This document shows, in pieces, positions 4,796 through 20,494 of a DNA stretch of 20,494 nt. The notes beneath the pieces are model-generated. The model was not told where the DNA came from. It was given only the letters and a program-made list of their open reading frames with translations, and ran no database searches. How positions within the stretch are numbered: the first letter of the stretch is position 1; every line of letters begins with the position of its first letter. This DNA comes from a virus. The position numbers were made by a program, and so were the translations under genes. Location of the stretch: positions 1 to 20,494 of IMG/VR virus record IMGVR_UViG_3300044568_001921; one strand, written 5' to 3'.

Positions 4796-4816
4796 AGTAA
4801 TATCTCCATATATATG

Positions 4817-4824: not shown

Positions 4825-4842
4825 AAAAATCTCACTTGAGGG

Positions 4843-5184
4843 TCAGATTTTCATTGGGAATCGTAGTCCCCGAGGATTATTGTTGGATAATAGAAGATTT
4901 GCATAATCTATTTCTCTGGTCATGTTCACAAATACTGTACCATCCTCCAACATCTCAAATTCATGCCATTCATTGGCAGGTAGATTTATTGGAGGATGAT
5001 TTTTATCCATCACAAGATCCTCTTCTCTATTTTCCATGCGCACAATCATAGAACCAGAATTACACATCAGACCATGATCATAGGTATGTGAATGTTTAAC
5101 TAACTTATCTCCTCTGTCTCCATTGTAGATATTTAGCATTACTCCACCAAAATTAAATACAAATTTTGCGTGGACCTTACACAT
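4843..5184 (-). CDS. Small cupin-like protein
   Basis: The protein has 113 residues. The cupin signature is visible: His31, His33 and His37 in KHSHTYDHGLMC, then a glycine turn (NSGSMIVRM), the PINLPANEWHEFEML segment with His74, and DGTVFVNM. These histidines would form a metal site in a small beta-barrel. It starts at ATG 5184 one base after the previous stop; an internal ATG at residue 16 has a closer GGAG but would cut into the first strand. Small cupins occur in aquatic T4-like phages near structural genes; substrate and role are unknown. Possible roles are sugar binding or modification on the virion. Confidence 0.75.
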   Translation of the reverse strand: MCKVHAKFVFNFGGVMLNIYNGDRGDKLVKHSHTYDHGLMCNSGSMIVRMENREEDLVMDKNHPPINLPANEWHEFEMLEDGTVFVNMTREIDYANLLLSNNNPRGLRFPMKI

Positions 5185-5185
5185 A

Positions 5186-5827: not shown

Positions 5828-5842
5828 ATAGATACTCCTCAA

Positions 5843-6820: not shown

Positions 6821-7701
6821 GTCAAATTAGTCCCCGAGATCATCCATGTTGTACTGGTCATTTTAATTGCTGTTGCAGAACCATACAAAGCCAACACTCT
6901 GCTTCCGGTAGTTCCTGCACCGGATAGGTACATTGTATCAGTGTTGATTGCAATATTTACATTCGATGTAGACATATTAATAAAAGTAATTGCCGTTCCT
7001 ATAGGATATGGCTGCACTCCATTGGCAGGAATAGTATACGTTCTAATGTTAGCATCAGTTGCTGGATGGTAAATTGCCTTGCCGGCATCTGCCAATACTG
7101 TTGTATATGCAACTATCTGAGAATTTATAGGAATATTTCTAAAACCAACTGAATTAGTGCCATCCACCGTACAACTAGACAGCGTGCCACTTGAAGGTGT
7201 GCCTAGAGCACCTGCTGGGGCAATATAGTCAGTTCCAGCCACTGCAATTGATGGAACACCAGTACTGGTAGTATTCTTTAGGAGACCAGTGGTTAATTCT
7301 GACAGTGTAGTTCCATTAATTTTACTCACCGTGGCAGCATTGCCCACAGAAGTAACATCACCAGTAAGATCTATACTGGTAGGGGCAGAAGAAATCCAAG
7401 TTGAACCATCGGAAGTAAGTACATTACCGGCATCTCCTGATGCCACGATAGTTACTGCGGGCGATTCAATTCCTGCCGGTGGATTGAAAGATAAAGTTAC
7501 TGCCCCTGATCCGGCAGGTAAGTCTACCATACCCTGCACCACAAAATTATCTTCTAGAGAATATAAAATATCATATTTTGGGAATGGTGCTGCCACTCCT
7601 ACCGTCAGAGAATGTGCCGACGAAATTTCGCGCCATTCAGCCAGTTCAATTCTTAATTGTGCTTCAGAACAAGGTAGTCTAGATGCATCTATAGAATTCA
7701 T
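6817..7701 (-). CDS. Tail fibre with chaperone-like N-terminal module
   Basis: The protein has 294 residues. Residues 1-55 (MNSIDASRLPCSEAQLRIEL, AHSLTVGVAAPFPKYDILY, FVVQ) align with the start of the chaperone-like gene at 14181-14606. A GSGAVTLSFNPPAGIESPAVT segment follows, then fibre stem motifs (GNVLTSDGSTWISSAPTSID, LTGDVTSVGNAATVSKING, VAGTDYIAPAGALGTPSSG). The C-terminal domain (AYTTVLADAGKAIYHPATDA, PYPIGTAITFINMST, TSTTWMISGTNLT) resembles the end of the gene at 12120-12896. Two tandem copies of AAAGGATTAAT precede the ATG. The stop overlaps the next start as ATGA. The protein is probably a fibre, given its stem and tip; what the N-terminal module does is open. Confidence 0.82.
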   Translation of the reverse strand: MNSIDASRLPCSEAQLRIELAEWREISSAHSLTVGVAAPFPKYDILYSLEDNFVVQGMVDLPAGSGAVTLSFNPPAGIESPAVTIVASGDAGNVLTSDGSTWISSAPTSIDLTGDVTSVGNAATVSKINGTTLSELTTGLLKNTTSTGVPSIAVAGTDYIAPAGALGTPSSGTLSSCTVDGTNSVGFRNIPINSQIVAYTTVLADAGKAIYHPATDANIRTYTIPANGVQPYPIGTAITFINMSTSNVNIAINTDTMYLSGAGTTGSRVLALYGSATAIKMTSTTWMISGTNLT

Positions 7702-7723
7702 ATTAATCCTTTATTAATCCTTT
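7702..7723 (-). promoter_or_regulatory. Duplicated ribosome binding site
   Basis: The minus strand holds two direct tandem copies of AAAGGATTAAT immediately before ATG 7701; the distal copy overlaps the stop of the collar fibre. Two Shine-Dalgarno-like sites therefore precede one start. Confidence 0.65.
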
Positions 7724-9251
7724 ATGTCTTGATGATGTAAGTAACAATTAAAGAAGGCTGAATAACATTAAAGGCAGCGCCACTACCTGTAGATGAAGAT
7801 GTCCAAGTATATCCCGCATTTTTTGGATCTCCGTAGGGTGCCGCACCGCCACCGCCCGTTCCAGAGTAATAATTGTGAGTATGCGCCGGCATTTCCGCTG
7901 TAGTCTGAACGTGAGATTCTTCTCCACCAGAATTCCCTACAGCATTTCCAAGCATTGCAGTTCCAGCACCTCCACTACCTACTAAAGTTCGTCTTGCCGA
8001 GTTGGGTAGAGTAAAAGTATTAATTCCATCCCCAACACCAAAAGTAGTGGAGATAACTGCAAATAAGGCAGAGTAAGTTGATCGTGAGATATTCGCTCCA
8101 TTGCAAGCAAGCCATCCGGTCGGTGGAGTTGCTGATCCAAATGCCATAAGTGCTCCTGTTGGAGCACCCCCTGCAGGAGCAGAAGACCAAGTTGAACCAT
8201 TGGAAGTAAGTACATTGCCTGATGCACCAGAAGCAGTAACACCAGTACCACCATTTGCAACTGCCAATGTGGCAGATAATCCCGCAGCAGTGCCAGAAGT
8301 ATTCTGATTAAGTGTCGGGAAAGTGCAATTTGCCAGATTACCAGAAGTAGGAGTGCCCAATACTGGAGTTACCAAGGTTGGACTGGTACTCAATACATTA
8401 TTACCAGAACCAGTTGAAGTAGTAACACCAGTACCACCGGATGCAACTGCCAGAGTGGTGGATAGACCTGCCGCAGTACCAGAAGTGTTCTGATTAAATG
8501 TTGGGAAAGTGCAATTTGCCAGATTACCGGAAGCAGGAGTACCCAATACTGGGGCAGTCAATGTTGGACTGGTAAGTGTCTTATTGGTAAGTGTATCTGT
8601 GGTTGCTTTACCAACCAGAGTATCTGTGGCATCCGGCAAAGTTACTATATGATTTGCCGTTGCCCCAGTTTGAATTGTAGTGATTGTATTAGTTGTTCCA
8701 TTAGGGTGAAAAGTAATTCTCTTGGTGGTATCAATTGCAGAATGTATCGTTACAGTGCCAGTGCCCTTTGCCTGTAAATGTAAACTAATATTAGCGTCAG
8801 AACCAGTTGCCAGAATGTGTGGTGGTTCCCCTGAACTATTATTTTGAATTGTAACTTGATTGACGGCAGATGCAATAGAAGAAAATTTAAGTTCTGCATG
8901 TCCATCGGCATCATCAATCTGAGCAATTACCGGTGTTGTAATAGTTGGACTGTTACTTAATACTACATTTGTAGTACCAGTTGAACTTGTAACACCAGTA
9001 CCACCGGATGCAACTGCCAATGTGGCAGATAATCCTGCGGCAGTGCCAGATGTATTCTGATTAAGTGTCGGGAAAGTGCAATTTGCCAGATCACCGGAAG
9101 TAGGAGTACCCAATATTGGAGTGGTGAAACTGGGAGAAACTAATTCTGCCTTATCAGTATTCAGATTGATAAAGTTATTATCTAGTTCAGTATTATTGAG
9201 GGGAGCATTTTTTGCTGTCCCGCCAGTAATCCGTGTTACGATGGTCGCCAT
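7722..9251 (-). CDS. Large tail fibre with tail collar domain (copy B)
   Basis: The protein has 509 residues. Residues 1-34 (ATIVTRITGGTAKNAPLNNT, then LDNNFINLNTDK) are a typical fibre N-terminus. The stem repeats a module of LGTPTSGNLANCTFPTLNQN, TSGTAAGLSATLAVASGGTGV and NVLSTSPTLVTP three times, split by an unrepeated stretch (about residues 110-220) that includes HAELKFSSIASAVNQVTIQN and HPNGTTNTITTIQ. TSNGSTWSSAPAGG leads into a collar domain from about 363: GALMAFGSATPPTGWLACNG, EMPAHTHNYYSGTGGG. The last about 50 residues are almost identical to the gene at 14619-15389. TATAAATA about 40 bases upstream of the ATG marks a likely late promoter. Confidence 0.92.
   Translation of the reverse strand: MATIVTRITGGTAKNAPLNNTELDNNFINLNTDKAELVSPSFTTPILGTPTSGDLANCTFPTLNQNTSGTAAGLSATLAVASGGTGVTSSTGTTNVVLSNSPTITTPVIAQIDDADGHAELKFSSIASAVNQVTIQNNSSGEPPHILATGSDANISLHLQAKGTGTVTIHSAIDTTKRITFHPNGTTNTITTIQTGATANHIVTLPDATDTLVGKATTDTLTNKTLTSPTLTAPVLGTPASGNLANCTFPTFNQNTSGTAAGLSTTLAVASGGTGVTTSTGSGNNVLSTSPTLVTPVLGTPTSGNLANCTFPTLNQNTSGTAAGLSATLAVANGGTGVTASGASGNVLTSNGSTWSSAPAGGAPTGALMAFGSATPPTGWLACNGANISRSTYSALFAVISTTFGVGDGINTFTLPNSARRTLVGSGGAGTAMLGNAVGNSGGEESHVQTTAEMPAHTHNYYSGTGGGGAAPYGDPKNAGYTWTSSSTGSGAAFNVIQPSLIVTYIIKT
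7786..7930. repeat. 145-bp near-identical collar tip block, copy 1
   Basis: Matches 14683-14827 with no gaps and only about ten differences. It encodes the HTHNYY receptor-tip region of the large collar fibre. Confidence 0.88.
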
Positions 9252-9291
9252 GATGAATTCCTATATTATTTACAATAACAACTGTGTATCA

Positions 9292-9299
9292 TATTTATA
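9292..9299 (-). promoter_or_regulatory. T4-type late promoter element
   Basis: The minus strand reads TATAAATA in the 88-base gap upstream of the large collar-domain fibre starting at 9251. Confidence 0.75.
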
Positions 9300-9339
9300 C
9301 CGAGTGTTCTTTACCAAATCAACTCATCATGGTTAAATC

Positions 9340-9600
9340 TTATGATGCTGGAGGTTTCTCAAATTCTATGTGAGGGAAATTCTCTTGCTTATTTATATCC
9401 CGCAACGATTGCCTATATGATTTCCAATTTGATTTTAGTTGTTCAGATAATTGATTATCAGACAATTGTGTCCAATCTGATTGTTGTAATAGGAAGTTTC
9501 TTTTTAAGATAATCTGTTTGCTTATTTCTGATTTATCTTGGAGTTGTTCTACATTTTTATCAATGTCACTATCACTGGTATCTACCAAATCTTGTATCAT
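9340..9600 (-). CDS. Tail assembly chaperone-like protein (RNxLLxxSDWTQL type)
   Basis: The protein has 86 residues. An acidic helical N-terminus (residues 1-30) leads to KRNFLLQQSDWTQLSDNQLS, WKSYRQSLRDINKQENFP and a proline end, FEKPPAS. This is the usual C-terminal pattern of phage tail assembly chaperones encoded next to fibre genes. It has the core only, without the N-terminal module seen in the gene at 14181-14606. It lies upstream in transcription of the large collar fibre at 7722-9251, which it may assist, and after the membrane protein. AGTGGA is a moderate ribosome site. Confidence 0.78.
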   Translation of the reverse strand: MIQDLVDTSDSDIDKNVEQLQDKSEISKQIILKRNFLLQQSDWTQLSDNQLSEQLKSNWKSYRQSLRDINKQENFPHIEFEKPPAS

Positions 9601-9617
9601 ATATGTCCACTAAAATA

Positions 9618-9884
9618 TTATTGAAATAACAAACGCACTTCCGGTGTTGCTAGAACTCCTGCGATAGTGCCAAGTGCCCAGAATACTAGATCCATGCGAC
9701 TGCCAGGACCAAAGTCATACCATACTCTGTTATTGTCATATCTCTGATAAATTTCTCGCATCAACCCTGTCATGGCACTAATGATAGCTGCCATCCAGAG
9801 TGATGTGATAAACGAGAATACGAATACGAGAACTACAGCAACAATGAAATGTGCCGGCTGGTCTATGTAATTTTTGTTGATCAA
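9618..9884 (-). CDS. Small membrane protein in fibre array, TTG start
   Basis: The protein has 88 residues. It starts at TTG 9884, one base after the fibre stop, with a strong GAGGAG 9 bases upstream. Residues 12-41 form a long hydrophobic stretch that could be one or two membrane segments, followed by a charged MREIYQRYDNN stretch, WYDFGPGSRMDL, and a second hydrophobic segment at about 65-80. The spacing of His12, Glu44 and Asp65 recalls small VanZ- or YfiM-like membrane proteins, but that comparison is from memory and weak. A holin-like role is possible because of size and topology, yet no endolysin lies nearby. It is the only membrane protein in the window. Confidence 0.75.
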   Translation of the reverse strand: MINKNYIDQPAHFIVAVVLVFVFSFITSLWMAAIISAMTGLMREIYQRYDNNRVWYDFGPGSRMDLVFWALGTIAGVLATPEVRLLFQ

Positions 9885-9885
9885 C

Positions 9886-10866
9886 TTATGCCGCTCCTCG
9901 TAGTATAGCTAGTTCCTCAACTATAATATGTAAAAAATGTTGAAGACCACTATCACCTGCCATTAATGGAGCGGTTCCACTAAGAACATTAACATCGTGG
10001 TTATAATTTATGTGACCCGCACCATCATAAGTTCTAAATACAAGTCTAAATTGAACTGTGAAATCCACTGCTTGACTTGGTGTTATGAGTATTGAATTAG
10101 TGTAAGTCCCAATTGCAGCATTGCCCAAATTCATTACATTACCATCATATCCACACGAACCAAGACTTTGCCAACCAGCGCCAGCAATGTTGATTTGCGG
10201 TTCAATATACATACCACCCCATGATGTAGAATCGTTTCTACAAGGCACGGTATAACTCATTTTGATTAAAGAACCAGCCTTCATGTCGGTCAGTTGTGCA
10301 AACGTAGGTCCGACAGCCCATCCAGCAGTGACGTTATAAGTCGCAGAGTCTACCTGGGCAATTATCTGCCTAGTATACCTACCACCAGTGGCCAGTTTTG
10401 CCACGTCAAGTGCGGCAGCACCGGCGGCATTCTTAATTATAGGAGTGTTTATACTTGTTGCAGTTGCTGCTCCTAATGATGGCGCGGTTAACACCATACC
10501 AGTTGATGTACAAGCACTAATGTCGCCTGATATGGCACCAGAAGCACTCAAGGTACCTGTAACAGTGGCACCAGTGGCAGTTGCTGCAACGATGGTTGTT
10601 GCACCTGAGAATAAAGCAGTGGCTGAAGTGGACGATGGAAACCCAGTACAATTCGACAAATTACCACTTGCCGGTGTACCAAGAATAGCACCTGTACCTA
10701 ATGTTGCTACACCTGTAACATCCAAGGCACCAGTAACAGTGGCACCAGTGGCAGTCATCGCTACTATTGTTGTGTCACCGGATAGTAAAGATAGATTACC
10801 AGATGCATCGGCAGTTTGAACTATACCACCGCCACCAGTTGTTATTGCCGAAATTGTTGATGCCAT
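9886..10866 (-). CDS. Tail fibre with MAST N-terminal module and unrecognised tip
   Basis: The protein has 326 residues. Residues 1-46 match the MAST module. The stem contains GAILGTPASGNLSNCTGFP and a second imperfect copy of the module core, FSGATTIVAATATGATVTGTLSAS, suggesting an internal duplication. From about residue 160, after KLATGGRYTRQIIAQVDS, lies a domain of about 165 residues (SLIKMSYTVPCRND, GMYIEPQINIAGAGW, FTVQFRLVFRTYDG) ending in the helical HFLHIIVEELAILRG; I do not recognise it. It is mostly beta-like and may be the receptor-binding tip. Its 28-base leader with the ribosome site is identical to that of the gene starting at 12896. A near-match late promoter (CATAAATA) lies 37 bases upstream. 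Confidence 0.8.
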   Translation of the reverse strand: MASTISAITTGGGGIVQTADASGNLSLLSGDTTIVAMTATGATVTGALDVTGVATLGTGAILGTPASGNLSNCTGFPSSTSATALFSGATTIVAATATGATVTGTLSASGAISGDISACTSTGMVLTAPSLGAATATSINTPIIKNAAGAAALDVAKLATGGRYTRQIIAQVDSATYNVTAGWAVGPTFAQLTDMKAGSLIKMSYTVPCRNDSTSWGGMYIEPQINIAGAGWQSLGSCGYDGNVMNLGNAAIGTYTNSILITPSQAVDFTVQFRLVFRTYDGAGHINYNHDVNVLSGTAPLMAGDSGLQHFLHIIVEELAILRGAA

Positions 10867-10894
10867 TTTATTTTCCTAAAAATTAATGTTATTA
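10741..10894. repeat. 154-bp MAST module plus leader, copy 1
   Basis: About 95 percent identical by eye to 12771-12924. It covers the N-terminal coding part and the 28-base upstream leader with the ribosome site. Confidence 0.88.
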
Positions 10895-10902
10895 GATATA
10901 AC

Positions 10903-10910
10903 TATTTATG
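10903..10910 (-). promoter_or_regulatory. Near-match late promoter element
   Basis: The minus strand reads CATAAATA, one base off the T4-like late consensus, in the gap upstream of the fibre starting at 10866. Position supports it; the mismatch lowers confidence. Confidence 0.45.
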
Positions 10911-10917
10911 ATTACAT

Positions 10918-11289
10918 TCAATCCATTACAACCCATTGGGTGGATTCTTCATTCCACTCATATTCTTTTTCATCTGCGGGCATTGCAACTGGTGATTGCC
11001 ACAAACATGTTTCTTCATCCAATGTCCAACTTTCATATGGTTGTGGAGCAAAAAATGCATCTCTAACTGAATCGTATGTGAAACCAATACTTCCGTAGTT
11101 CTTGCGTAGAGGTGTACCATTTGGATTCTTGCCACCGTATGTATGGTAACTTGTCTGAATCCATTGACCTGGACTGGAGTCCATAGGTTTCACCAATGTA
11201 TTAAAGTACTCTGGTTCAGCGGCAATAACATTAATAACTATTCCATTAAATACTTTAGCGAAATGACTATCTGTATGTATATGACTCAT
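10918..11289 (-). CDS. Conserved small phage protein, MSHFAKV family (copy 2)
   Basis: The protein has 123 residues. It has an N-terminal insertion relative to the copy at 16393-16689 (MSHIHTDSHFAKVFNGIVIN), then the same blocks: DSSPGQWIQTSYHTYGGKNP, LRKNYGSIGFTYDSVRDAFF, WTLDEETCLWQSP. It also has the acidic C-terminal tail YEWNEESTQWVVMD that the other copy lacks. The insertion looks like a near duplication of the start (MSHIHTD then SHFAKV). AAGGAT lies 7 bases before the ATG. It follows the glycine-rich tip gene by 9 bases. The function is not known to me; recurrence beside glycine-rich and fibre genes suggests a structural or assembly role. Confidence 0.83.
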   Translation of the reverse strand: MSHIHTDSHFAKVFNGIVINVIAAEPEYFNTLVKPMDSSPGQWIQTSYHTYGGKNPNGTPLRKNYGSIGFTYDSVRDAFFAPQPYESWTLDEETCLWQSPVAMPADEKEYEWNEESTQWVVMD

Positions 11290-11298
11290 AATTTATCC

Positions 11299-12123
11299 TT
11301 AAAATGTTATTGTGCCCGATGATGTCCATGTATAGACACGGTATCCACCGGCAACAGTTATAGTTGCGCCTGTAGTTGATTTCGCTGCCAGGTACTTATC
11401 TGCATATCTAATGATAACAATACCTGAACCACCAGCACCACCAGCACCACTTCGACCACCACCACCGCCTGACCCAGTATTTATAGTGCCTGCAGCATGA
11501 GATCCACCATAAGTACTTCCGCCGATTCCATTGGTATTTGCCCCTGCGTACCAACCAGAACCTGTTCCACCTGCCGCGTACCAGGTTGCTGCTCCAGAAA
11601 TTGCAGAACTTAGTCCTACACCACCACCCATTGGACTATTAGAAAATGGACCTGTACCAGTTCTATAACCAGGACCACCAATACCGCCGGCACCACCACC
11701 ACCACCACCGGCAGAATCGCTGCCACCTTGGTTGGCCGATGATGCAATACCACCGGAAAATCCTTGTCCAACAGTTTCCAAACCTCCTACTCCGTTAATT
11801 GGTCCGCCACCGCCGCCAGAACCTCCATTACCACCTGCTTGCGCATAAGCATAAGCACCACGGCCACCACCAATAGTGGTTAATGTACTAAATATACTAT
11901 TGCTTCCATTTGCATTTGCCGTGCCGCCAGCACCAATTGTTATAGTTAACGGAACACCGGAAGCTACTGCAAACCCTGCACTCGTCAATAATCCTCCTGC
12001 ACCACCGCCACCACAATAGTTAGCACCTGATGTACCACCACCACCACCGCCAGCAACTACTAGATATTCGACTGTTGGAGTAATAGATATTACAGAACTG
12101 GCTATTGTGCCAATAATAATCAA
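11299..12123 (-). CDS. Glycine-rich tail tip-like protein, TTG start
   Basis: The protein has 274 residues if it begins at TTG 12123, which overlaps the previous stop as TTGA and has GGAG 7 bases upstream. An ATG at 12171 lies far inside the upstream fibre with no ribosome site, so I reject it. After a hydrophobic start (IIIGTIASSVISI) comes PTVEYLVVAGGGGGG, many GG blocks interrupted by short loops, and the closing GGSGIVIIRY and YRVYTWTSSGTITF. This frame of EYLVVAGGGGGG, glycine loops and SGIVIIRY is a known glycine-rich phage fibre tip domain. It has no attachment module of its own, so it may work as a partner of the upstream fibre or be joined to it by frameshifting. Start and independence are uncertain. 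Confidence 0.75.
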   Translation of the reverse strand: MIIIGTIASSVISITPTVEYLVVAGGGGGGTSGANYCGGGGAGGLLTSAGFAVASGVPLTITIGAGGTANANGSNSIFSTLTTIGGGRGAYAYAQAGGNGGSGGGGGPINGVGGLETVGQGFSGGIASSANQGGSDSAGGGGGGAGGIGGPGYRTGTGPFSNSPMGGGVGLSSAISGAATWYAAGGTGSGWYAGANTNGIGGSTYGGSHAAGTINTGSGGGGGRSGAGGAGGSGIVIIRYADKYLAAKSTTGATITVAGGYRVYTWTSSGTITF

Positions 12124-12896
12124 GATATTGCTCCTACGACATACCAAGTATCTGTACCAGTTTTGATACAAGTGGCAGATTTATTTTGCCCTAGAACTGG
12201 AGAAGCAGTAGTAGTGCCTGTGGATAGTACGGTTGTTGTTGCAGGAGTTACTGCACTTATTGTGGTAGCACCTACGCCTGTCTGTATCAAAGTTATGGTA
12301 GATCCTATTGCGTATGGCACACTCGCATTGGTTGGTAACTTAAATGTATTGGCAGAAGCATTGTTAATCGTTACTATTGCGCCGGCATCAGCAGCCACGG
12401 TTACATATGCTGTGGTTGTTTGAGCATTAATTGCCTGAACAATAATTTTGTTTGTCAACGTATCAGTCGTATTCTTTCCAACTAGGGTATCAGTAGCGTC
12501 TGGTAGAGTTAGTGTATTACTTCCTGATACTGCCGGGGCTGCTAGTGTGATTGAACCTGATACTGCACCGCTGAATGTACCTGTAGTGCCTGATACTGCA
12601 CCGCTGAATGTACCTGTAGTGCCTGATACTGCACCGCTGAATGCACCTGTAGTGCCTGATACTGCACCGCTGAATGTACCTGTAGTGCCTGATACTGCAC
12701 CGCTGAATGCACCTGTAGTGCCTGCTACTGCACCGCTAAATGTATTTGCACTCAAGGTACCTGTAATAGTGGCACCAGTGGCAGTCATCGCCACTATTGT
12801 TGTGTCACCGGATAGTAAAGATAGATTACCAGATGCATCGGCAGTTTGAACTATACCACCAATACCCGTTGTTATTGCTGCAATTGTGGATGCCAT
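12120..12896 (-). CDS. Tail fibre with 11-residue tandem repeats
   Basis: The protein has 258 residues. Residues 1-46 are the MAST module. Residues 53-118 are six tandem 11-residue units of the form FSGAVSGTTG(T/A), encoded by nearly identical 33-bp DNA repeats; such G/T/S-rich repeats probably form a beta-structured shaft. They are followed by ITLAAPAVSGSNTLTLPDAT, TLVGKNTTDTLTNK and a C-terminal domain (AYVTVAADAGAIVTINN, VPYAIGSTITLIQTG, KSATCIKTGTDTWYVVGAIS) resembling the end of the fibre at 6817-7701. Its leader, TAGGAAAATAAAATG with the preceding bases, is identical to that of the gene starting at 10866. The stop overlaps a TTG start of the next gene. Confidence 0.82.
   Translation of the reverse strand: MASTIAAITTGIGGIVQTADASGNLSLLSGDTTIVAMTATGATITGTLSANTFSGAVAGTTGAFSGAVSGTTGTFSGAVSGTTGAFSGAVSGTTGTFSGAVSGTTGTFSGAVSGSITLAAPAVSGSNTLTLPDATDTLVGKNTTDTLTNKIIVQAINAQTTTAYVTVAADAGAIVTINNASANTFKLPTNASVPYAIGSTITLIQTGVGATTISAVTPATTTVLSTGTTTASPVLGQNKSATCIKTGTDTWYVVGAIS
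12556..12753 (-). repeat. 33-bp in-frame tandem repeats
   Basis: Six units of 33 bases start at 12556, 12589, 12622, 12655, 12688 and 12721. The first five differ only by one T/C position; the sixth is diverged. Each encodes an 11-residue FSGAVSGTTG(T/A) unit, so copy number changes keep the frame. Confidence 0.92.
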
Positions 12897-12924
12897 TTTA
12901 TTTTCCTAAAAATTAATGTTATTA
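12771..12924. repeat. 154-bp MAST module plus leader, copy 2
   Basis: Pairs with 10741-10894; the leader part is identical and includes the stop codon of the upstream chaperone gene. Confidence 0.88.
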
Positions 12925-13221
12925 CTTCTGGTTTGGATACTTTGCTTTGATAGCAGCAATTGTTGTTTCCCAATTGTTTGTACCATTTACCTTATCCCAA
13001 TACTGCATATCTGCTTGATCTGCAAATGATGGGTAGGCGGCAGCACGGTTTCGTTGGTATTCTTTGTTGTCATACTCAGCTTGCAACTCTGTTGCCTTAG
13101 CAGTAATTGCAATCATTTGTTCGGCAGTTAGTTTACCCGTGGAGATGTAAATATCACTGCTATTAGGTTCTTGTGTGCAGTCGCCATAAATAAGGCTGGT
13201 TGCCCTTAATAAATCCAACAT
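12922..13221 (-). CDS. Probable tail fibre assembly chaperone (YPSFADQ type)
   Basis: The protein has 99 residues. ATG at 13221 is preferred because GGAGG lies 5 bases upstream within the end of the previous gene; the TTG at 13233 overlaps that site. Residues 20-70 include DIYISTGKLTAEQMIAITAK, a helical segment. The C-terminal part, NRAAAYPSFADQADMQYWDK through TTIAAIKAKYPNQK, is the same helical motif as the end of the Tfa-like gene at 15386-15715 but with a longer insert. The Tfa beta domain is absent. The position, directly after the fibre at 13223-14179, suggests a dedicated fibre chaperone. Function is inferred from motif and context. Confidence 0.72.
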   Translation of the reverse strand: MLDLLRATSLIYGDCTQEPNSSDIYISTGKLTAEQMIAITAKATELQAEYDNKEYQRNRAAAYPSFADQADMQYWDKVNGTNNWETTIAAIKAKYPNQK

Positions 13222-13222
13222 A

Positions 13223-14179
13223 TTAACCTCCAATCTCTGTGATAATTAATTCGGATGTGCCTTTTTCGTAATTGCCGCCTAATGCAGCAAAACATCTGTT
13301 GTTCCATAGAGTCGCCGTCCCCTCATAGTCGGCAACAAGACTAAATGTTATTGGTGTGCCTGCTACTGATGAGGTTGAAACTAGAGTTGATATGTTTACC
13401 GTTTCAGGTGTTGAGTTATTATCGTCTACAACATAGCTCTGCGATGGGGTTGCTAAACCATAGCCCCGCCCTTGCCCACCTACGTTTACCCTGACGCCGT
13501 TCATATGAATATTGAAAAGTGCATCCCATGCACCTGGTACTTCCCCAATCCAACGTGCAGTCACTAAGAACATACTATTAGCGCGAATCGGCGTAATGAT
13601 TTTTGTTATTCCATTGATGATTGAATCAGTACCAGATAATGTCTGTGACCCCTGTGTTGCGGTGAGGTAGCTAACAACCTGTAACACACTGCCAGCGGGC
13701 AACGCACGCGCAGGTACTCCAGTACAGTTAGTTAGATTACCAGATGCCGGTGTATTCAATATTGCACCTGAAGTTAATGCGAGGGCAGTTGTTGCCGTTG
13801 CAGCAGTGCCAGATGTATTTTGGTTGAGTGTGGGGAAAGTGCAATTCGTTAGATTACCAGAAGCAGGCGTGCCCAGTGGGGCACCATCAGAACCAGATGA
13901 AGAAACCCAAGCAGATCCATTGTAATACTCTGTTGCAGTTGAGGTACTATTAAACCTAGTCATCCCAGTAACAGGAGTAGGTCTTTGTGCTGTTGTACCT
14001 ACTGGTAGAGTCAATGCTCCAGTACCAGATACTGCAAGAGCACCTGTAATAGTGGCACCAGTGGCAGTCATCGCCACTATTGTTGTGTCACCGGATAGTA
14101 AAGATAGATTACCAGATGCATCGGCAGTTTGAACTATACCACCGCCACCAGTTGTTAGTGCTGCAATTGTTGATGCCAT
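13223..14179 (-). CDS. Tail fibre with MAST N-terminal module and beta-rich C-terminus
   Basis: The protein has 318 residues. Residues 1-46 (MASTIAALTTGGGGIVQTAD, NLSLLSGDTTIVAMTATGAT) are shared with the genes starting at 12896 and 10866. Next come a QRPTPVTGMTRFNSTSTATEYYNGSAW segment, a common phage fibre motif, and stem repeats (LGTPASGNLTNCTFPTLNQN). From about residue 160 a beta-rich domain begins with VLQVVSYLTATQGSQTL and ends in GTSELIITEIGG; I recognise this arrangement from small distal domains of aquatic phage fibres but cannot name a receptor. ATG follows the chaperone stop by one base, with AAGGAG upstream. A second chaperone-like gene starts one base after its stop. Confidence 0.82.
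   Translation of the reverse strand: MASTIAALTTGGGGIVQTADASGNLSLLSGDTTIVAMTATGATITGALAVSGTGALTLPVGTTAQRPTPVTGMTRFNSTSTATEYYNGSAWVSSSGSDGAPLGTPASGNLTNCTFPTLNQNTSGTAATATTALALTSGAILNTPASGNLTNCTGVPARALPAGSVLQVVSYLTATQGSQTLSGTDSIINGITKIITPIRANSMFLVTARWIGEVPGAWDALFNIHMNGVRVNVGGQGRGYGLATPSQSYVVDDNNSTPETVNISTLVSTSSVAGTPITFSLVADYEGTATLWNNRCFAALGGNYEKGTSELIITEIGG
14054..14179. repeat. MAST module, copy 3 (coding part only)
   Basis: Closely matches the coding part of the other two MAST modules, but its leader differs (AAGGAGAATAAAATG). Confidence 0.85.
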
Positions 14180-14180
14180 T

Positions 14181-14606
14181 TTATTCTCCTTGTATCCAAA
14201 CTGATATTGGTTTTGTGACCCAAACTAAATCCCCGGACACTGGATTAACTGCAATCTTTCTAATCTCGTTACGATAAGCAATGAATTCTGCTTGATTACC
14301 CAAGCACGGACTGTTTGTAGGATTAATTACATCTGCTATGGTTATCCAATCAGTACTATCTAGGATACCAACAGCGGTTGCTTTATTCTGTTCTGCTGTG
14401 GCTGGACCTATTGGTTCAGGATCTGATACAGGATCATCTTCCACCACAAATCCACTATCTAGAACTCCTAGTAGGTCATAGGCTGGAAGCGGTGCAGGAA
14501 TTCCAATGGTCAATCTGTGTGCCACCAGTGCTTGGTGATACGCAGAAAGATCGGCACGCAGGATTTCTTCTGACACAGGGAGTTGATTACGATGAATAGT
14601 GTTCAT
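14181..14606 (-). CDS. Phage tail assembly chaperone-like protein (Phage_tail_APC type)
   Basis: The protein has 141 residues. Residues 1-56 (MNTIHRNQLPVSEEILRADL, H-RLTIGIPAPLPAYDLL, SGFVVED) form a module also found at the N-terminus of the fibre gene at 6817-7701. A short proline-rich linker follows. The C-terminal half, EQNKATAVGILDSTDWITI, then GNQAEFIAYRNEIRKIAVNP and WVTKPISVW, matches the phage tail assembly chaperone pattern found beside fibre genes in many phages. It presumably helps fold the collar-type fibre just upstream or the next fibre. AAGGA lies 8 bases before the ATG, and the next fibre begins one base after its stop. Confidence 0.8.
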   Translation of the reverse strand: MNTIHRNQLPVSEEILRADLSAYHQALVAHRLTIGIPAPLPAYDLLGVLDSGFVVEDDPVSDPEPIGPATAEQNKATAVGILDSTDWITIADVINPTNSPCLGNQAEFIAYRNEIRKIAVNPVSGDLVWVTKPISVWIQGE

Positions 14607-14618
14607 AAAATAATATCC

Positions 14619-15389
14619 TTATGTTTTAATTATTTTGAGTACGACAGAGGATGGTTGCATGATGTTAGCAGCTGTACCGCCTCCTGTAGATGAAGATGGC
14701 CAAGTATATCCCGCATTTTTTGGATCTCCGTAGGGTGCCGCACCGCCACCACCCATTCCAGAGTAATAATTGTGAGTATGCGCCGGCATTTCAGCAATTG
14801 TCTGAACGTGAGATTCTTCACCACCTGTGCTACCAACAGAATTTGCTAATCTAGCCGTCCCTGTACCACCGGAACCAACTGCCACCTTGCGGCGAAGATC
14901 TGGCACACCAAAGGTAGTAGAACCATCGCCAACTCCCCAAACAGTACCGATTGCCGCAAACAGAGTAGCATAGGTTGTTCTACTGACATTACTGCCATCG
15001 CACCCTAGATACCCAGAAGGGGCACTGATACCACCGAAATCTAGTATTGTACCAGGAGATACAGTGCCACCAGCCACTGGGAATCCAGTACAATTCGACA
15101 AGTTACCACTTGCCGGTGTACCCAATGCCGGAGTAACCAACACTGGACTAGTATTGCGCACAGTGGCGCCAGTACCAGTATAAGAAACGTCGGCAGGTGC
15201 TGTACTTACACCAGTACCACCCTGACTAACCGATAAAACACCAGTTATGCTTGATGTTGGTATGTCACTGGCACTGGTAAGTACAGTACCGCTAACTGCC
15301 GGCAGGGTTAATGTTGTTAGTCCCGCCACTACAGGTGCCTGTAGTGTAACTGAACCTGAAATATCTCCTGCTATTACTACTGAACTCAT
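14619..15389 (-). CDS. Short tail fibre with tail collar domain (copy A)
   Basis: The protein has 256 residues. The MSSVVIAGDISG module and stem (residues 1-105) are nearly identical to those of the gene at 15717-16391. From about residue 109 comes a phage tail collar domain: PGTILDFGGISAPSGYLGCDG, SRTTYATLFAAIGTVWGVGDG, FGVPDLRRKVAVGSGG, then GGEESHVQTIAEMPAHTHNYY. HTHNYY is the metal-binding type histidine motif known from T4 gp12 receptor-binding tips. The final segment (GGGGAAPYGDPKNAGYTW and the IIKT end) is almost identical to the end of the gene at 7722-9251. It overlaps the preceding chaperone by 4 bases and is followed after 12 bases by another chaperone gene. Confidence 0.9.
   Translation of the reverse strand: MSSVVIAGDISGSVTLQAPVVAGLTTLTLPAVSGTVLTSASDIPTSSITGVLSVSQGGTGVSTAPADVSYTGTGATVRNTSPVLVTPALGTPASGNLSNCTGFPVAGGTVSPGTILDFGGISAPSGYLGCDGSNVSRTTYATLFAAIGTVWGVGDGSTTFGVPDLRRKVAVGSGGTGTARLANSVGSTGGEESHVQTIAEMPAHTHNYYSGMGGGGAAPYGDPKNAGYTWPSSSTGGGTAANIMQPSSVVLKIIKT
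14683..14827. repeat. 145-bp near-identical collar tip block, copy 2
   Basis: Matches 7786-7930. It encodes the HTHNYY tip of the short collar fibre, while the flanking parts of the two collar domains are clearly more diverged. Confidence 0.88.
15079..15221. repeat. 143-bp identical block, copy 1
   Basis: By direct reading this stretch matches 16081-16223 base for base. It encodes the stem of the collar-type fibre; the other copy encodes the stem of the gp53-like fibre. Confidence 0.9.
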
Positions 15390-15715
15390 ACTGTATCCTT
15401 GGGAAATGCATTTTTCACTGCCTGTATCTCAGCTTTCCAAGCATCAAGTCCAGAGTGAAATATGGTATCGAACTGATCAGCGAATGATGGATACGCCGCT
15501 TTACGTAGTTCAGAATATGTTTGTGTAATAATTGCTCGGGCAACCAATACAGGTTTTCCTTGTGCATCTCCGGCAATTTGCAGTCCAGTGGATTGACCTT
15601 GCTGTAAAGAATTATAATATTCTTCAGTTATCTCTACTACATCATCAGGCATTGTAGAATGGACATCTGGGGTGTAGAAACCACTTGTTGAAACTGAGTA
15701 AAAATATGTTGTCAT
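15386..15715 (-). CDS. Tail fibre assembly chaperone, Tfa-like (Caudo_TAP)
   Basis: The protein has 109 residues. The N-terminal half (FYSVSTSGFYTPDVHS, MPDDVVEITEEYYNSLQQGQ, then an AGDAQGKPVL strand) is the typical layout of lambda Tfa-like fibre assembly proteins, which bind the fibre tip and help it fold. The C-terminal half has a helical RKAAYPSFADQFDTIFHSGL...AEIQAVKNAFPK motif common in phage tail chaperones and shared with the gene at 12922-13221. It starts one base after the preceding fibre stop and overlaps the next fibre by ATGA, so it is coupled to both. Which fibre it assists is an inference; the gp53-like fibre upstream is the closest candidate. Confidence 0.85.
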   Translation of the reverse strand: MTTYFYSVSTSGFYTPDVHSTMPDDVVEITEEYYNSLQQGQSTGLQIAGDAQGKPVLVARAIITQTYSELRKAAYPSFADQFDTIFHSGLDAWKAEIQAVKNAFPKDTV

Positions 15716-15716
15716 T

Positions 15717-16391
15717 TTAATGTCCTATAGCAAACCAAGATGCTTGCATTGTTTGATCCCAACCATTAGTAATATATACTGTAGAATTATTTGCGAAATA
15801 TCCACCCTGTATACACCCCCACAAATCACCCCGAACGCCAAATGCACCGTTGGCAATAACTTGGAATCCAGCATTGGGCATGGCGATCGGTAGAGTTACA
15901 CCGGCTGTACCGTTTGCACCAACAGCAACGGTGCCCCACTGCATTATTATACCATTTGGCAATTTTGTGTATCCAAAACTCGATTTACTAGACGTCCCAC
16001 AAGCAAACTCAGTGGTTGCCAACTGGGTTGTACTTGTTCCGCTGGGAGCAGTAACGCCAGTTGTTGTTGCAGCAGCCACAGGGAATCCAGTACAATTCGA
16101 CAAGTTACCACTTGCCGGTGTACCCAATGCCGGAGTAACCAACACTGGACTAGTATTGCGCACAGTGGCGCCAGTACCAGTATAAGAAACGTCGGCAGGT
16201 GCTGTACTTACACCAGTACCACCATTGGCCACTGATAAAACACCAGTTATGCTTGATGTTGGTATGGCACTTGTACTTGTAAGTACAGCACCACTTGTTG
16301 CTGGTAGAGTTAATGTTGTTAGTCCCGCCACTTCAGGTGCCTGTAGTGTAACTGAACCTGAAATATCTCCTGCTATTACTATACTTGACAT
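15717..16391 (-). CDS. Short tail fibre with gp53-like C-terminal domain
   Basis: The protein has 224 residues. Residues 1-40 are the MSSIVIAGDISG module; 50-105 are stem motifs (ITGVLSVANGGTGVSTAP, NTSPVLVTPALGTPASG, NLSNCTGFP) almost identical to the gene starting at 15389. The linker TSTTQLATTEFA is typical of phage fibre necks. The last 85 residues, from GYTKLPNGIIMQWGTV to SWFAIGH, match the gp53-like tail fibre C-terminal domain, which often forms the receptor-contacting tip. ATG follows the previous stop by one base and uses an AGGAG inside that gene, so translation is probably coupled. The next gene is a probable fibre assembly chaperone and may serve this fibre. Confidence 0.87.
   Translation of the reverse strand: MSSIVIAGDISGSVTLQAPEVAGLTTLTLPATSGAVLTSTSAIPTSSITGVLSVANGGTGVSTAPADVSYTGTGATVRNTSPVLVTPALGTPASGNLSNCTGFPVAAATTTGVTAPSGTSTTQLATTEFACGTSSKSSFGYTKLPNGIIMQWGTVAVGANGTAGVTLPIAMPNAGFQVIANGAFGVRGDLWGCIQGGYFANNSTVYITNGWDQTMQASWFAIGH
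16081..16223. repeat. 143-bp identical block, copy 2
   Basis: Identical to 15079-15221. Downstream of the shared stem in the coding direction the two fibres have unrelated tips. Confidence 0.9.
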
Positions 16392-16392
16392 A

Positions 16393-16689
16393 TTATGCTC
16401 CTATTAATTCCGGATTTGGATTAACCCACTGACACGTTTCTTCATCCAGTGTCCAAGTAGAATCTGGTTGTGGTGGGATAAACGCATCTCTAGCTGGATC
16501 ATATGTGTATCCGATACCTGCGTAGTTCTTGCGTAGAGGTTTGTCGTTAGGGTGCTTACCACCGTATGTGTTGTAACTTGTTTGTATCCATTGACCTGGA
16601 CTGGAGTCTACGAATGTGTCGAAGAACTCTGCTTCGGCAACAATGACGTTAATAACTTTTCCATCCAATACTTTAGCGAAATGACTCAT
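16393..16689 (-). CDS. Conserved small phage protein, MSHFAKV family (copy 1)
   Basis: The protein has 98 residues and begins MSHFAKVLDGKVINVIVAE, followed by SSPGQWIQTSYNTYGGKHP, an RKNYAGIGYTYDPARDAFIPPQP block and WTLDEETCQW. This small family recurs in the structural regions of T4-like aquatic phages; to my knowledge its function is not established. It is a paralogue of the gene at 10918-11289 but stops about 15 residues earlier, lacking the EYEWNEESTQWV tail. AAGGAT is the ribosome site. A TATAAATA late promoter element lies about 32 bases upstream, so this gene probably opens the transcript that continues into the fibre-chaperone array. No signal peptide or membrane segment is visible. 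Confidence 0.85.
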   Translation of the reverse strand: MSHFAKVLDGKVINVIVAEAEFFDTFVDSSPGQWIQTSYNTYGGKHPNDKPLRKNYAGIGYTYDPARDAFIPPQPDSTWTLDEETCQWVNPNPELIGA

Positions 16690-16720
16690 GATTTATCCTT
16701 AAAATTTTATTACATGCATC

Positions 16721-16728
16721 TATTTATA
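16721..16728 (-). promoter_or_regulatory. T4-type late promoter element
   Basis: The minus strand reads TATAAATA in the 47-base gap between the second polyglycine gene and the MSHFAKV gene starting at 16689. It would drive the fibre-chaperone array. Confidence 0.75.
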
Positions 16729-16736
16729 ACTAATAT

Positions 16737-17570
16737 TTAAACTTTCGCTCCATATGTTGTGCCAAGAGCACCACTCCAAGTTACAAATCCATTTCCACTG
16801 ACAGCAGCACCTGCCGCTCCACCACCACCGGCACCTTGACCTCGTTGACCGCCGCCACCACCATGTCCAACTGCGCCGCTGGCACCACCAGAACCTCCAG
16901 GACCAGAACTACTAAATTTACCACTACCACCGTGCGCAGATCCACCGCCACCACCGGCATATAATGATCCAGCCCCGCCGTGGCTAGTTCCACCGCCGCC
17001 GGTACCATAACCGCCGCCGCCGCCTCCACCGCCACCTGTTGGTCCAAGTCCATTACCACCGCCACCACCACCGCCTCCACCGCCACCAATTGTACCATTA
17101 TTTACTATGGTTATGGGGGCAGTAACTCTTATACCAGTACCACCGGCAGCACCCCAATTTCCACCACCATAACCACCAGTACCACCCTTCCCCATTATTA
17201 TACCATTGTTTATTAATTTTGCGCCGTTGGGAAATGGTCCATTAATTGTAAAGGCTGGAGTACCCGAGCTAGATGACAATATTATCGTTCCAGCATTTAT
17301 AGTTAATTCAACGTAAGAATTTTGATTCCACCCAGCGGCGATTGCCAATGTCCGATAATCGCCTTGATACTGTGTTGGAGCTGCCGGAGCATATGTAAGA
17401 AATTGGGAACTAGATTTGCCATGACCATGGGAAAACGAGACCGCGCCAGTGGCACGTTCGAATAATCCACGTACACCTGCGTGATCAAGAGATAAAGTTG
17501 CTGTTGCACTCAAACTTAATTCAGTGTTTATGTTTGTTGCCGATATTGGACCAGATATTGGGAGTCCCAT
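16737..17570 (-). CDS. Polyglycine adhesin-like tail fibre protein (copy 2)
   Basis: The protein has 277 residues and is a clear full-length paralogue of the preceding gene. The N-terminus MGLPISGPISATNINTELSL is followed by AGVRGLFERATGAVSF and HGHGKSS. Shared landmarks are the WNQNSYVELTI segment near residue 81, FPNGAKLINNGIIMGKGG near 114-130, an 11-glycine run at 162-172, GKFSSSGPGGSGG, QRGQGAGGGGAAGAA and the end GTTYGAKV. The two copies differ mostly in the loops between glycine blocks, where receptor-contacting residues would be expected if this is a polyglycine-II type adhesin. AGGA lies 7-8 bases upstream of the ATG. Possible roles are a distal adhesin cap or a short fibre tip. Confidence 0.8.
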   Translation of the reverse strand: MGLPISGPISATNINTELSLSATATLSLDHAGVRGLFERATGAVSFSHGHGKSSSQFLTYAPAAPTQYQGDYRTLAIAAGWNQNSYVELTINAGTIILSSSSGTPAFTINGPFPNGAKLINNGIIMGKGGTGGYGGGNWGAAGGTGIRVTAPITIVNNGTIGGGGGGGGGGGNGLGPTGGGGGGGGGYGTGGGGTSHGGAGSLYAGGGGGSAHGGSGKFSSSGPGGSGGASGAVGHGGGGGQRGQGAGGGGAAGAAVSGNGFVTWSGALGTTYGAKV

Positions 17571-17604
17571 GTTATTTTCCTGTTTATTTTAATATTTTGT
17601 TTAT

Positions 17605-18447
17605 TTAATTAAGAGAACCATATGTTGTGCCAAGAGCAGTCCAAGTTACATATGCATTTCCATTAATGGCTGCACCTGCCGCTCCACCACCACCGGCACC
17701 TTGACCTCGTTGACCTACACTACCACCATGACCAACAGCACCTATGTTCCCGCCAGAACCCCCTGCTCCAGAACTACTAAATTTACCTCTGCCGCCGACG
17801 TGACCACCGCCACCACCGCCGCCATATAATGAACCCCCAGCACCACCGACCCATGCTCCAGCACCATATGAAGCACCGCCACCACCACCGCCGCCATGTC
17901 CATGAGCAGATCCTTCACCGGAACCCCCGCCTCCACCACCGCCTCCACCGCCACCAATTGTACCATTATTTTCAATAATTATTGGAGTAGAAACATTTAC
18001 ACCTGGACCACCGGCAGCACCCCAACTTCCATTGCCACCTTGCCCACCATTACCACCCCTTCCCATTATTATACCATTGTTTATTAATTTTGCACCGTTG
18101 GGGAATGCCCCATCAATTGTTAGAGCCGGTATACTTGTAGAATTTGACAATATTACTGTTGACGCACTTATAGTTACTTCAACATAAGCATTTTGATTCC
18201 ACCCACCCTCTATTGCCATCTGCCGCAAATTTAATCCATATGCTCCACCGCTTGGAGGAACATATGGAATATACATAGAGATAAATTTACCATGACCATG
18301 GTCATATGAGATTTCACTCTCTGTAATTGGTCGTGTAAATAATACGCGCACTGGTGGATCATTTAATGCTGTAGTTGACAGTGGTGGTGCCATCAACTCA
18401 GCATTAATATCATCGGCAGATAACGGACCAGACAGTGGAAGTGTCAT
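17605..18447 (-). CDS. Polyglycine adhesin-like tail fibre protein (copy 1)
   Basis: The protein has 280 residues. Residues 1-55 (LPLSGPLSADDINAEL, then VRVLFTRP and HGHGK) form an N-terminal module seen in many phage structural proteins and shared with the next gene. Residues 80-125 are beta-rich (WNQNAYVEVTISASTVIL, ALTIDGAFPNGAKLINNGIIMG). From residue 130 the chain is dominated by glycine, with an unbroken run of 11 at 165-175 and many GGGGxGG blocks. It ends in a short non-glycine cap (INGNAYVTWTALGTTYG). Known T-even-like adhesins such as gp38 use glycine-rich segments packed as polyglycine-II helices to display receptor loops; the layout here is compatible, but homology to gp38 is inferred. 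The ribosome site is weak (GTAGAAAAAATG), only 12 bases after the preceding gene. Confidence 0.8.
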   Translation of the reverse strand: MTLPLSGPLSADDINAELMAPPLSTTALNDPPVRVLFTRPITESEISYDHGHGKFISMYIPYVPPSGGAYGLNLRQMAIEGGWNQNAYVEVTISASTVILSNSTSIPALTIDGAFPNGAKLINNGIIMGRGGNGGQGGNGSWGAAGGPGVNVSTPIIIENNGTIGGGGGGGGGGGSGEGSAHGHGGGGGGGASYGAGAWVGGAGGSLYGGGGGGGHVGGRGKFSSSGAGGSGGNIGAVGHGGSVGQRGQGAGGGGAAGAAINGNAYVTWTALGTTYGSLN

Positions 18448-18459
18448 TTTTTCTACGTA

Positions 18460-19161
18460 CTATTTTTGTAATGCAGTTACCTTTGCGTCCAATTCTTTAA
18501 TTGCTTCAATTAATAATGGAACGATTCTGTCATAATGTACAGTCATATAGTTTTCACCTGATTTGCTATATTCGCTGCCATCGGCATTTTGCGCAATATC
18601 AAACGGGGCAGGAGTTACTATTTGAGGTAAAACTTTTTGGATTTGTTGAGATAATATGCCGACTTGTTCTTCATCTGACGTGTAACCATATTGTTTAGCA
18701 ACCTCGTTGCCCTTGTATATAACACCGTCCAATGATTTAACTGCTTCCAATGGATTCTTGATATTGCAAATAACATCTTTCAATCTAGCATCAGAATAGA
18801 ATGCTGTAATGTTGTTTGTGGCGCGAATTTCACCAGCAACTGCAGATGGAGCAGTGCCAACACCGAAAGAATTAACTTGGTAGTTGGCAGTAGTTACCAA
18901 AATACCAGCAGATCCAGAAGTGTTCTGATTAAGTGTTGGGAACACACAATTTGTTAGATCACCAGAAGCAGGAGTACCCAACGTTGGATTTACCAATGTT
19001 GGACTGGTAGCAAATACAACGGCACCAGTGCCAGTTGCCTCTGTATTTGTAAGTACAGTACCACTAGCTGTAGGTAGGGTTAATACAGTTGCGCCTGCAT
19101 TGGGTTGAGCTTGTAACGTAACAGTACCTGAAACATCCCCTGAAATGACTACACTTGACAT
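18460..19161 (-). CDS. Short tail fibre with S74 self-cleaving chaperone domain
   Basis: The protein has 233 residues. ATG at 19161 is chosen because GGAG lies 6 bases upstream; a TTG at 19173 overlaps that ribosome site and is unlikely. Residues 1-40 are the MSSVVISGDVSG N-terminal module also found in the genes starting at 16391 and 15389. Residues 50-95 carry stem motifs (SPTLVNPTLGTPASGDL, FPTLNQNTSGSAG). From about residue 112 it is an S74 intramolecular chaperone domain with Ser123 and Lys128 in YSDARLKD, then the EQVGILSQQIQKVLPQIV core and a terminal helix. The fibre is probably processed to about 122 residues after trimer folding. A TATAAATA element and an AT-rich inverted repeat lie upstream, so it probably starts a late transcript. 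Strongly paralogous to the upstream gene over the last 120 residues. Confidence 0.9.
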   Translation of the reverse strand: MSSVVISGDVSGTVTLQAQPNAGATVLTLPTASGTVLTNTEATGTGAVVFATSPTLVNPTLGTPASGDLTNCVFPTLNQNTSGSAGILVTTANYQVNSFGVGTAPSAVAGEIRATNNITAFYSDARLKDVICNIKNPLEAVKSLDGVIYKGNEVAKQYGYTSDEEQVGILSQQIQKVLPQIVTPAPFDIAQNADGSEYSKSGENYMTVHYDRIVPLLIEAIKELDAKVTALQK

Positions 19162-19218
19162 ATTATTCTCCAAAAATTACAACATATTTGATGATACAAT
19201 TTACAATTTTGATACATA

Positions 19219-19241
19219 ACATTATTTATAATAAATAATGT
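19219..19241. repeat. AT-rich inverted repeat over late promoter
   Basis: ACATTATTTA at 19219-19228 and TAAATAATGT at 19232-19241 are perfect inverted copies around 3 bases. The repeat contains the TATAAATA element and follows the stop of the S74 fibre by about 40 bases. Confidence 0.6.
19223..19230 (-). promoter_or_regulatory. T4-type late promoter element
   Basis: The minus strand reads TATAAATA in the gap between the two S74 fibre genes, about 62 bases before the ATG at 19161. It lies within an AT-only inverted repeat. Confidence 0.65.
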
Positions 19242-19280
19242 TTCAGAACCCTGAAATACCAATAATTTTGAATGTATCTA

Positions 19281-20494
19281 TTATTTACCTGCTTTTTGTA
19301 GTTCAAGTATTTGAACTTGTTGCTCCTTGATTGCCTCGATCAATAATGGAATCAGTTTCTCATATTGAATTGTCAAGTAATTCTCACCGGACTTACTATA
19401 TTCACTGCCGTCCTCTGCCTGTGCTATATCAAATGGCGCCGGAACAACAACTTGTGGCAGTACTTTCTGTACTTCTTGTGCTATCAGTCCAACCTGTTCA
19501 GTGTCTGAAGTATATCCATATTCACGGGCAACTTCATTACCTTTGTATACAACTCCATTTAGAGACATCACTGCTTCCAATGGATTTTTGATATTGCCCA
19601 ACACATCCTTCAATCTAAGATCGGAGTAATATGCTGTCACATTATTTGTGGCACGAATGTCACCTGTCACTCCAGATGCCGGTGTACCGACCCCAAGAGA
19701 TCTTATCTGATAACTATTTGTGGTGACCAGTACCGCAGCAGATCCAGAAGTGTTCTGGTTGAATATTGGCCAGGTGAAGGTACCAGCACTGAAATCACCG
19801 GATACTGGAATTCCAAGGGCAGGTGTAACCAAGGTTGGTGAGATACTTAACACAACACTTCCGGTACCCGTCTTAGAATTGACACCAGTTCCACCCTGAA
19901 GAACTGACAATGGTGTGAGTAACCCAGTCAATTGAGTAATATCACCATTTGTTCCACTAATTGCAGCCGATAGATTTGCCCTTGCTTGCGTGGCAGTAGT
20001 TCCACCAGTACCACCAGATGCCACTGCCAGAGTGATAGATAGACCTGCGGCAGTGCCAGTTGTATTTTGATTCCAGATTGTAGGTGTACCAGTCAATCCA
20101 CCAAACGCAACAGTTCCGGCAGATCCAGAAACATTGCCAGTAACATTACCAATCAATGTTGTTGGAGATCCTATTGTTCCTATCGCCCCAATAAATGATG
20201 TGGCAGTTATAACATTTGCTGAAAAATTACCTCCACTATCCCGCGCCACAATAGTATCTGGGGCAGATATTGTAGATGTATTCATATCATCTAATAAGTC
20301 TGCATTCAACCCAGATCCAGGACCATCCACTGTTTTGAGTTTGATAAGTACATCTGCCGCAACATATGCATCAGCAGCAATTTTTAAATTACTAAAATTC
20401 AAATCTACTTGATCATTTGTTAGTGGGATACCCAAATATGTTACAGACTCTGGTGGCAAAGAACCAGATGCTGCTCTAAGATATAATGATACTG
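19281..20494 (-). CDS. Tail fibre with C-terminal S74 chaperone domain (5' end outside window)
   Basis: The reading frame stays open to the window edge, so the true start lies beyond position 20494; the TTG at 20459 is internal. Near the visible N-terminus is a PLTNDQVDLNFSNLK motif, common near the start of T4-like phage fibres. The middle is stem-like, with repeated QNTSGTAAGLS, LAVASGGTG and LVTPALGIPVSGDF elements. The last roughly 115 residues match the intramolecular chaperone (peptidase S74) family: YYSDLRLKD contains the Ser and Lys five residues apart that form the self-cleavage dyad, followed by EQVGLIAQEVQKVLPQVV and a C-terminal helix. In this family the domain helps the fibre trimerise and then cuts itself off before the Ser. 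The C-terminal domain is paralogous to that of the next gene. Family is clear; receptor and position in the virion are unknown. Confidence 0.9.
   Translation of the reverse strand, partial: VSLYLRAASGSLPPESVTYLGIPLTNDQVDLNFSNLKIAADAYVAADVLIKLKTVDGPGSGLNADLLDDMNTSTISAPDTIVARDSGGNFSANVITATSFIGAIGTIGSPTTLIGNVTGNVSGSAGTVAFGGLTGTPTIWNQNTTGTAAGLSITLAVASGGTGGTTATQARANLSAAISGTNGDITQLTGLLTPLSVLQGGTGVNSKTGTGSVVLSISPTLVTPALGIPVSGDFSAGTFTWPIFNQNTSGSAAVLVTTNSYQIRSLGVGTPASGVTGDIRATNNVTAYYSDLRLKDVLGNIKNPLEAVMSLNGVVYKGNEVAREYGYTSDTEQVGLIAQEVQKVLPQVVVPAPFDIAQAEDGSEYSKSGENYLTIQYEKLIPLLIEAIKEQQVQILELQKAGK

Follow-up and report, generated by a model that had tools for sequence, protein, structure and literature searches.

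Two neighbouring fibre genes, A and B, carried an identical stretch of 143 nt in the distal part of their stems and ended in unrelated tips. Both lie in the 20,494-nt stretch of viral DNA that was analysed here (the window). The stems of these modular fibres were probably homogenised by homologous recombination, either by gene conversion or by a shared incoming tract.

Fibre A (14619..15389, minus strand) is a protein of 256 aa with an MSS-type stem (residues 1-104), a tail-collar tip (Pfam Collar, residues 113-169, E 2e-20) and a C-terminal part. Fibre B (15717..16391, minus strand) has 224 aa, with the same MSS-type stem at residues 1-104 and a Gp53-like C-terminal tip (Pfam Gp53-like_C, residues 143-224, E 9e-12). 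The two domain matches agree with the initial annotation, which had assigned a collar tip and a gp53-like tip to these genes. A tail-fibre-assembly-like protein of 109 aa is encoded between B and A (15386..15715, minus strand; PHROG 188, E 2.9e-14; PHROG 5400, E 5e-15), and its gene overlaps the start of fibre A by 4 nt. Upstream of B are a small protein of 98 aa (16393..16689, minus strand; PHROG 7759), which has a paralogue at 10918-11289, and a gp38-like glycine-rich adhesin (16737-17570; Pfam GP38, E 2e-8). The PDB sequence search returned a sole, weak match for fibre A, to the long tail fibre 8kec, and no match for fibre B. The AlphaFold2 model of fibre A, built from 9 sequences, had a pLDDT of 36 and was unusable.

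The block was located at 15079..15221 in A and at 16081..16223 in B, and the two copies were exactly identical, as had been annotated. Both copies are on the minus strand as direct repeats in the same frame, with an offset of 1002 nt, which is a multiple of 3. No longer exact repeat was found in the window, and the run is broken by a mismatch on either side (15078 and 15222). In the whole record of 20,494 bases, the search recovered these two copies and, inside fibre E (10637..10680, minus strand, 93%), a third one that is shorter and corresponds to the distal end only; there were no others. The block covers codons 57 to 104, that is, the distal stem, and ends just past the motif LGTPASGNLSNCTGFP at the stem end (the GTPxSGxLxNCTG joint). 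The block ends at codon 104, Collar begins at residue 113 and Gp53-like_C at residue 143, so the conserved segment borders the variable tip.

The proximal stems (codons 1-56) of A (15222..15389, minus strand) and B (16224..16391, minus strand) were not identical. They differed by 20 nt in the 158 nt of codons 4-56 (15379-15222), a stretch that opens with an exact run of 48 nt from 15379, and by another 7 nt at 15380-15386, within codons 2-4. There were 0 differences in codons 57-103. The stem is thus a patchwork of 48 identical nt, approximately 110 diverged nt and 143 identical nt. On the 3′ side of the block in the coding direction, identity was 31% over 100 nt, and similarity past codon 104 was at chance level. 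The pairwise comparison of the two genes therefore gave a sharp block and not an even identity across them, and the slight N-terminal differences reported in the initial annotation were also found. When 20 differences were placed randomly in 301 nt by permutation, a mismatch-free run of at least 143 nt had P = 4.5e-5. The block held 0 synonymous differences, compared with approximately 6 expected at the rate of the flank (Poisson p 0.0026).

The homology of A and B ran from both ATGs to codon 104, ahead of both tip domains, and no relation was seen upstream of the two ATGs, which limits the homologous unit to the stem. It is conceivable that a whole fibre gene was duplicated in tandem and that one tip was then replaced by horizontal transfer, with the block as a remnant. 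The two genes are indeed neighbours in direct orientation, with homology from both ATGs. However, the upstream genes and the tips have no homology, and 20 differences in codons 4-56 against 0 in codons 57-103 are unlike a single duplication that diverges evenly, which makes this course of events unlikely. Whole-gene duplication as the simplest reading was rejected, as homology is confined to the stretch from the ATG to codon 104. Gene conversion or recombination is the better fit, given the unrelated upstream genes and downstream tips and the patchwork structure of the stem. The initial annotation had proposed a very recent duplication or gene conversion. Recent sharing confined to the stem stands, given the sharp block, the lack of synonymous differences and the edges at the ATG and the stem-tip joint, and duplication of the whole gene fits less well, in view of the unrelated upstream genes and tips and the patchwork stem.

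Metagenome assemblers are error-prone at repeats near the k-mer length, and an assembly artefact was a concern already raised in the initial annotation. The exact identity could then be mainly a product of an assembler that merged similar stems. A second assembly, L004 (IMGVR_UViG_3300042892_001451), is a separate IMG/VR record of different length, which argues against this. L004 covers positions 7845-20494 of the window at 99.968% and is identical to it in gene content and gene order, so the arrangement of A and B is not an error of one contig. Only four differences in total were found over 12,650 nt. Two of them (15081 and 15090), both synonymous, are near the tip end of the block in copy A, which equals copy B at these sites in the window and not in L004, so that the exact run is 131 nt in L004. 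The other two (7854 and 7858) are at the end of L004, where fibre F has the alleles of the A tip. All four fall in paralogous repeats, and each makes one paralogue match another. These differences may be a mark of gene conversion and may equally be a mark of paralogue mixing in assembly. Fibre E as an outgroup for 15081 and 15090 was ambiguous: it matched L004 at one of the two sites and the window at the remaining one. Whether the tip-side end of the block counts as fully identical thus differs between the two assemblies. The concern bears mainly on those two sites, where identity is seen in the window only, and less on the gene arrangement, found in both assemblies, or on 131 of the 143 nt, which are identical in both. 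In addition, the differences between A and B outside the block were retained in both copies in both assemblies. We consider it very unlikely that the identity arose mainly in assembly.

Selection on the DNA or the protein, through a structural constraint or a DNA site, could in principle keep the block identical without recent exchange. The last part of the block (LGTPxSGNLxNCTG) is a motif that is widespread in environmental phage fibres. However, relatives of the stem matched poorly at residues 57-80, many matches spanning just residues 1-63 or 80-102, and no synonymous differences remain in the block where about six were expected; selection as the sole cause is highly improbable. Site-specific inversion was rejected, as the block copies are direct and no inverted repeats occur there. 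The only inverted pairs in the window were two short palindromes (434-473 and 18272-18325), and no DNA invertase or recombinase was matched among the ORFs scanned in this partial contig, which comprised part of its small ORFs. A diversity-generating retroelement (DGR) as the cause of the difference between A and B was also rejected: the tips are unrelated and not adenine-mutated, and no reverse transcriptase with TR/VR was seen among the window ORFs read or scanned.

All fibre-like genes of the window, of which there are at least 10, are encoded on the minus strand. Small genes lie among them, and some of these match tail-fibre-assembly families. Two stem families were recognised, MSS (A, B and S2) and MAS (C, D and E). 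Fibre S2 (18460..19161) has the third MSS-type stem and an S74 intramolecular-chaperone tip. Fibres C (13223..14179), D (12120..12896) and E (9886..10866) have MAS-type stems with different tips; the first approximately 140 nt of their coding sequences are alike and include exact runs of 68-102 nt (102 nt between C and D), and the genes diverge further downstream. Fibre F (7722..9251) has a different N-terminus and a collar tip related to that of A (262 nt at 77%). Tips recur on differing N-termini within the window, with collar on A and F and S74 on S1 and S2.

Several repeats and small genes were also observed in the array. Fibre D has 33-nt tandem repeats at 12523-12775 that are nearly identical among themselves. 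A long coiled-coil-like fibre protein (2184-4049) has 33-nt and 87-nt repeats at 3082-3411. A repeat protein with FGYG and SNTGV units (5843-6820) stands alone in the window; in the related contig L014, translations judged by eye show a FGYG/SNTGV repeat protein apparently fused to MAS stems (3962-5305 and 5318-6679). A probable membrane protein of 88 aa (9618-9884) has a counterpart in L013/L014 (235 nt at 90.6%), whose array is different in other respects, and the protein may thus be a constant component of the region.

L004 extends beyond the window into the C-terminus of VrlC and a gene of 81 aa, directly ahead of the first fibre. The best matches of this VrlC were in Kyanoviridae (Synechococcus phage BUCT-ZZ01, 37% identity). 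In cyano- and pelagimyophages, the host recognition cluster extends from VrlC to gp14 (PMC7029224). As the array adjoins VrlC, the position of this cluster, the window very probably represents the cluster of an uncultured T4-like phage, with the contigs ending inside the array, short of its far border. The window resembles the published cluster in being a hypervariable fibre region adjoining VrlC (PMC7029224), and the order of VrlC and the 81-aa gene is as in cultured Kyanoviridae. In contrast to the regions of cultured Kyanoviridae (n = 8), most of which list few fibre genes right after VrlC, the window has its fibre-like genes in one cluster, several of them on two common stem families.

Sibling phages showed that such arrays turn over beside a near-identical core. 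Over the core stretch compared, L087, L088 and L089/L014 were identical to L004 in the VrlC-end DNA as far as approximately position 1284 and had a different array beyond. L090 matched the start of the L004 array with 0 mismatches at 1117-4923 (approximately 3,800 nt) and had 38 differences up to 1116, in the VrlC end. At L004 1117-1284 and the equivalent positions of L090, L087 and L089, core and array were decoupled, with the joint around the 81-aa gene. A distal swap within one gene was also found: L013 and L015, compared with the near-identical L014, had a fibre gene (L014 11696-12490) with a common first stretch of approximately 40 codons and a different distal part. The L013/L015 version of this gene has the GTPASGNLANCTG motif.

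In L014, an MSS stem bears an Mtd-like tip (PDB 1yu3, E 2.8e-17) as the target of a DGR at 7674-10175. A reverse transcriptase is encoded near the Mtd-like gene (9177-10175; Pfam RVT_1, E 2.5e-16), and the template repeat (TR) is at approximately 8906-9020. Of the 21 mismatches between VR and TR, 20 were at template adenines. From sample to sample, 15-18 of the 115 positions of the VR of the L014 type differed, almost always where the template has an adenine, and the TR was constant. Judged by this adenine-specific change in the VR beside a constant TR, the DGR that L014 carries on the MSS stem type is active.

The combination of one stem type with many tips recurred in other contigs. There were 43 MSS-type proteins in viral contigs, with a mean identity of 80% over residues 1-30, and the 56 MSS/MAS proteins together formed 27 clusters by tip. 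Several of the tips were found on MSS as well as on MAS stems. The Pfam domains on these proteins included glycine-rich, S74, collar, Gp53-like, C1q and Mtd domains. The joint motif was present in 51 ORFs of the 39 fetched loci, and similarity fell to background right past it in 22 non-redundant fibres. The drop is the only informative part of this comparison, because the ORFs were picked for carrying the motif. No relative of the stem turned up in the bacterial and archaeal genomes scanned. The tip A domain was found on unrelated stems in other phages, the alignments starting mostly from residue ~110. Searches with tips A and B gave distant relatives and no close copies on other stems, and tips at 90% identity or more occurred in L004 only.

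Exact repeats of at least 70 nt lying at least 400 nt apart were found in the window, in L004 and in one other contig only, among 173 stretches, overlapping ones included. An exact repeat of 100 nt was absent from the eight VrlC regions of cultured Kyanoviridae. With 3 among 173 stretches and 0 of 8 regions, the homogenised stem pair is not a general property of arrays of this kind. Modularity is general, and a freshly homogenised stem pair within one genome is uncommon in the sample taken.

Under homologous recombination of the stems, our preferred explanation, the array would be assembled from exchangeable modules, each with a short N-terminal stem, presumed to be on the virion side, and a distal receptor-binding tip. 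The 143-nt distal stem that ends at the joint would have been made identical in A and B recently, and the tips would have remained unrelated. We infer that the process was gene conversion; alternatively, both genes may have received the same incoming stem tract. Recombination of block with block would yield a fusion of the B stem to the A tip, with deletion of the B tip and the 109-aa gene. The fusion is predicted to be in frame because the copies share frame and orientation and are 1002 nt apart. As such an event would give an in-frame fusion, stem recombination is a plausible route of tip turnover, by which the array could gain, lose and re-pair tips, with a presumed effect on host range.

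It is likewise plausible that the block serves for in-frame tip exchange between A and B, as the initial annotation had suggested in describing the stem as a joint for tip exchange. The relatives lend this suggestion indirect support, with related tips on other stems, many tips per stem type and the distal swap in siblings. As for A and B themselves, no contig showed an exchange or deletion between them, and a degenerate pattern of the block edge, used to look for fusions of A and B in viral_contigs, matched L004 alone. A further, rather doubtful possibility is that the array acts as a tip library within the genome, as in cassette-based antigenic variation. Common stems would be kept alike by repeated gene conversion, tips would be movable in frame between positions, and the MSS stem would also be a mount for DGR-diversified tips in siblings.

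Tetart, Desplats and Krisch reportedly described in 1998 (cited in PMC7468147) that the distal tail fibres of T-even phages recombine between conserved motifs. The present array is similar to the T-even case (gp37/gp38), in that conserved segments beside variable receptor-binding parts would be the recombination joints, and gp38-like adhesins are in the window too. The T-even exchange takes place at gp37/gp38 between co-infecting phages, whereas the segment found here is common to two paralogues of one genome.

The modularity of fibre tips is already well known (PMC10408124, PMC3909814, PMC7468147). In modular tailspikes and fibres, an anchor-like N-terminus is retained and the distal domain is exchanged, with a conserved motif near the joint (PMC10408124), as in the present array. 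That modularity was described mainly by comparing genes between phages, whereas here several genes of one array have the same N-terminus. Metaviromic islands and flexible gene modules likewise combine a near-identical core with interchangeable host-recognition genes (PMC3909814, PMC7468147). These were mostly described at the level of genes or modules, whereas the joints between stem and tip found here are within genes.

Tip exchange between phages is well known, and the case described here concerns paralogous fibres of one genome with a stem that was probably homogenised recently. Given siblings with different arrays, with distal swaps and with a DGR on this stem type, such a case could be used to measure the rate at which host-recognition arrays are rebuilt. 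It would also allow asking whether shared stems speed the rebuilding of these arrays.
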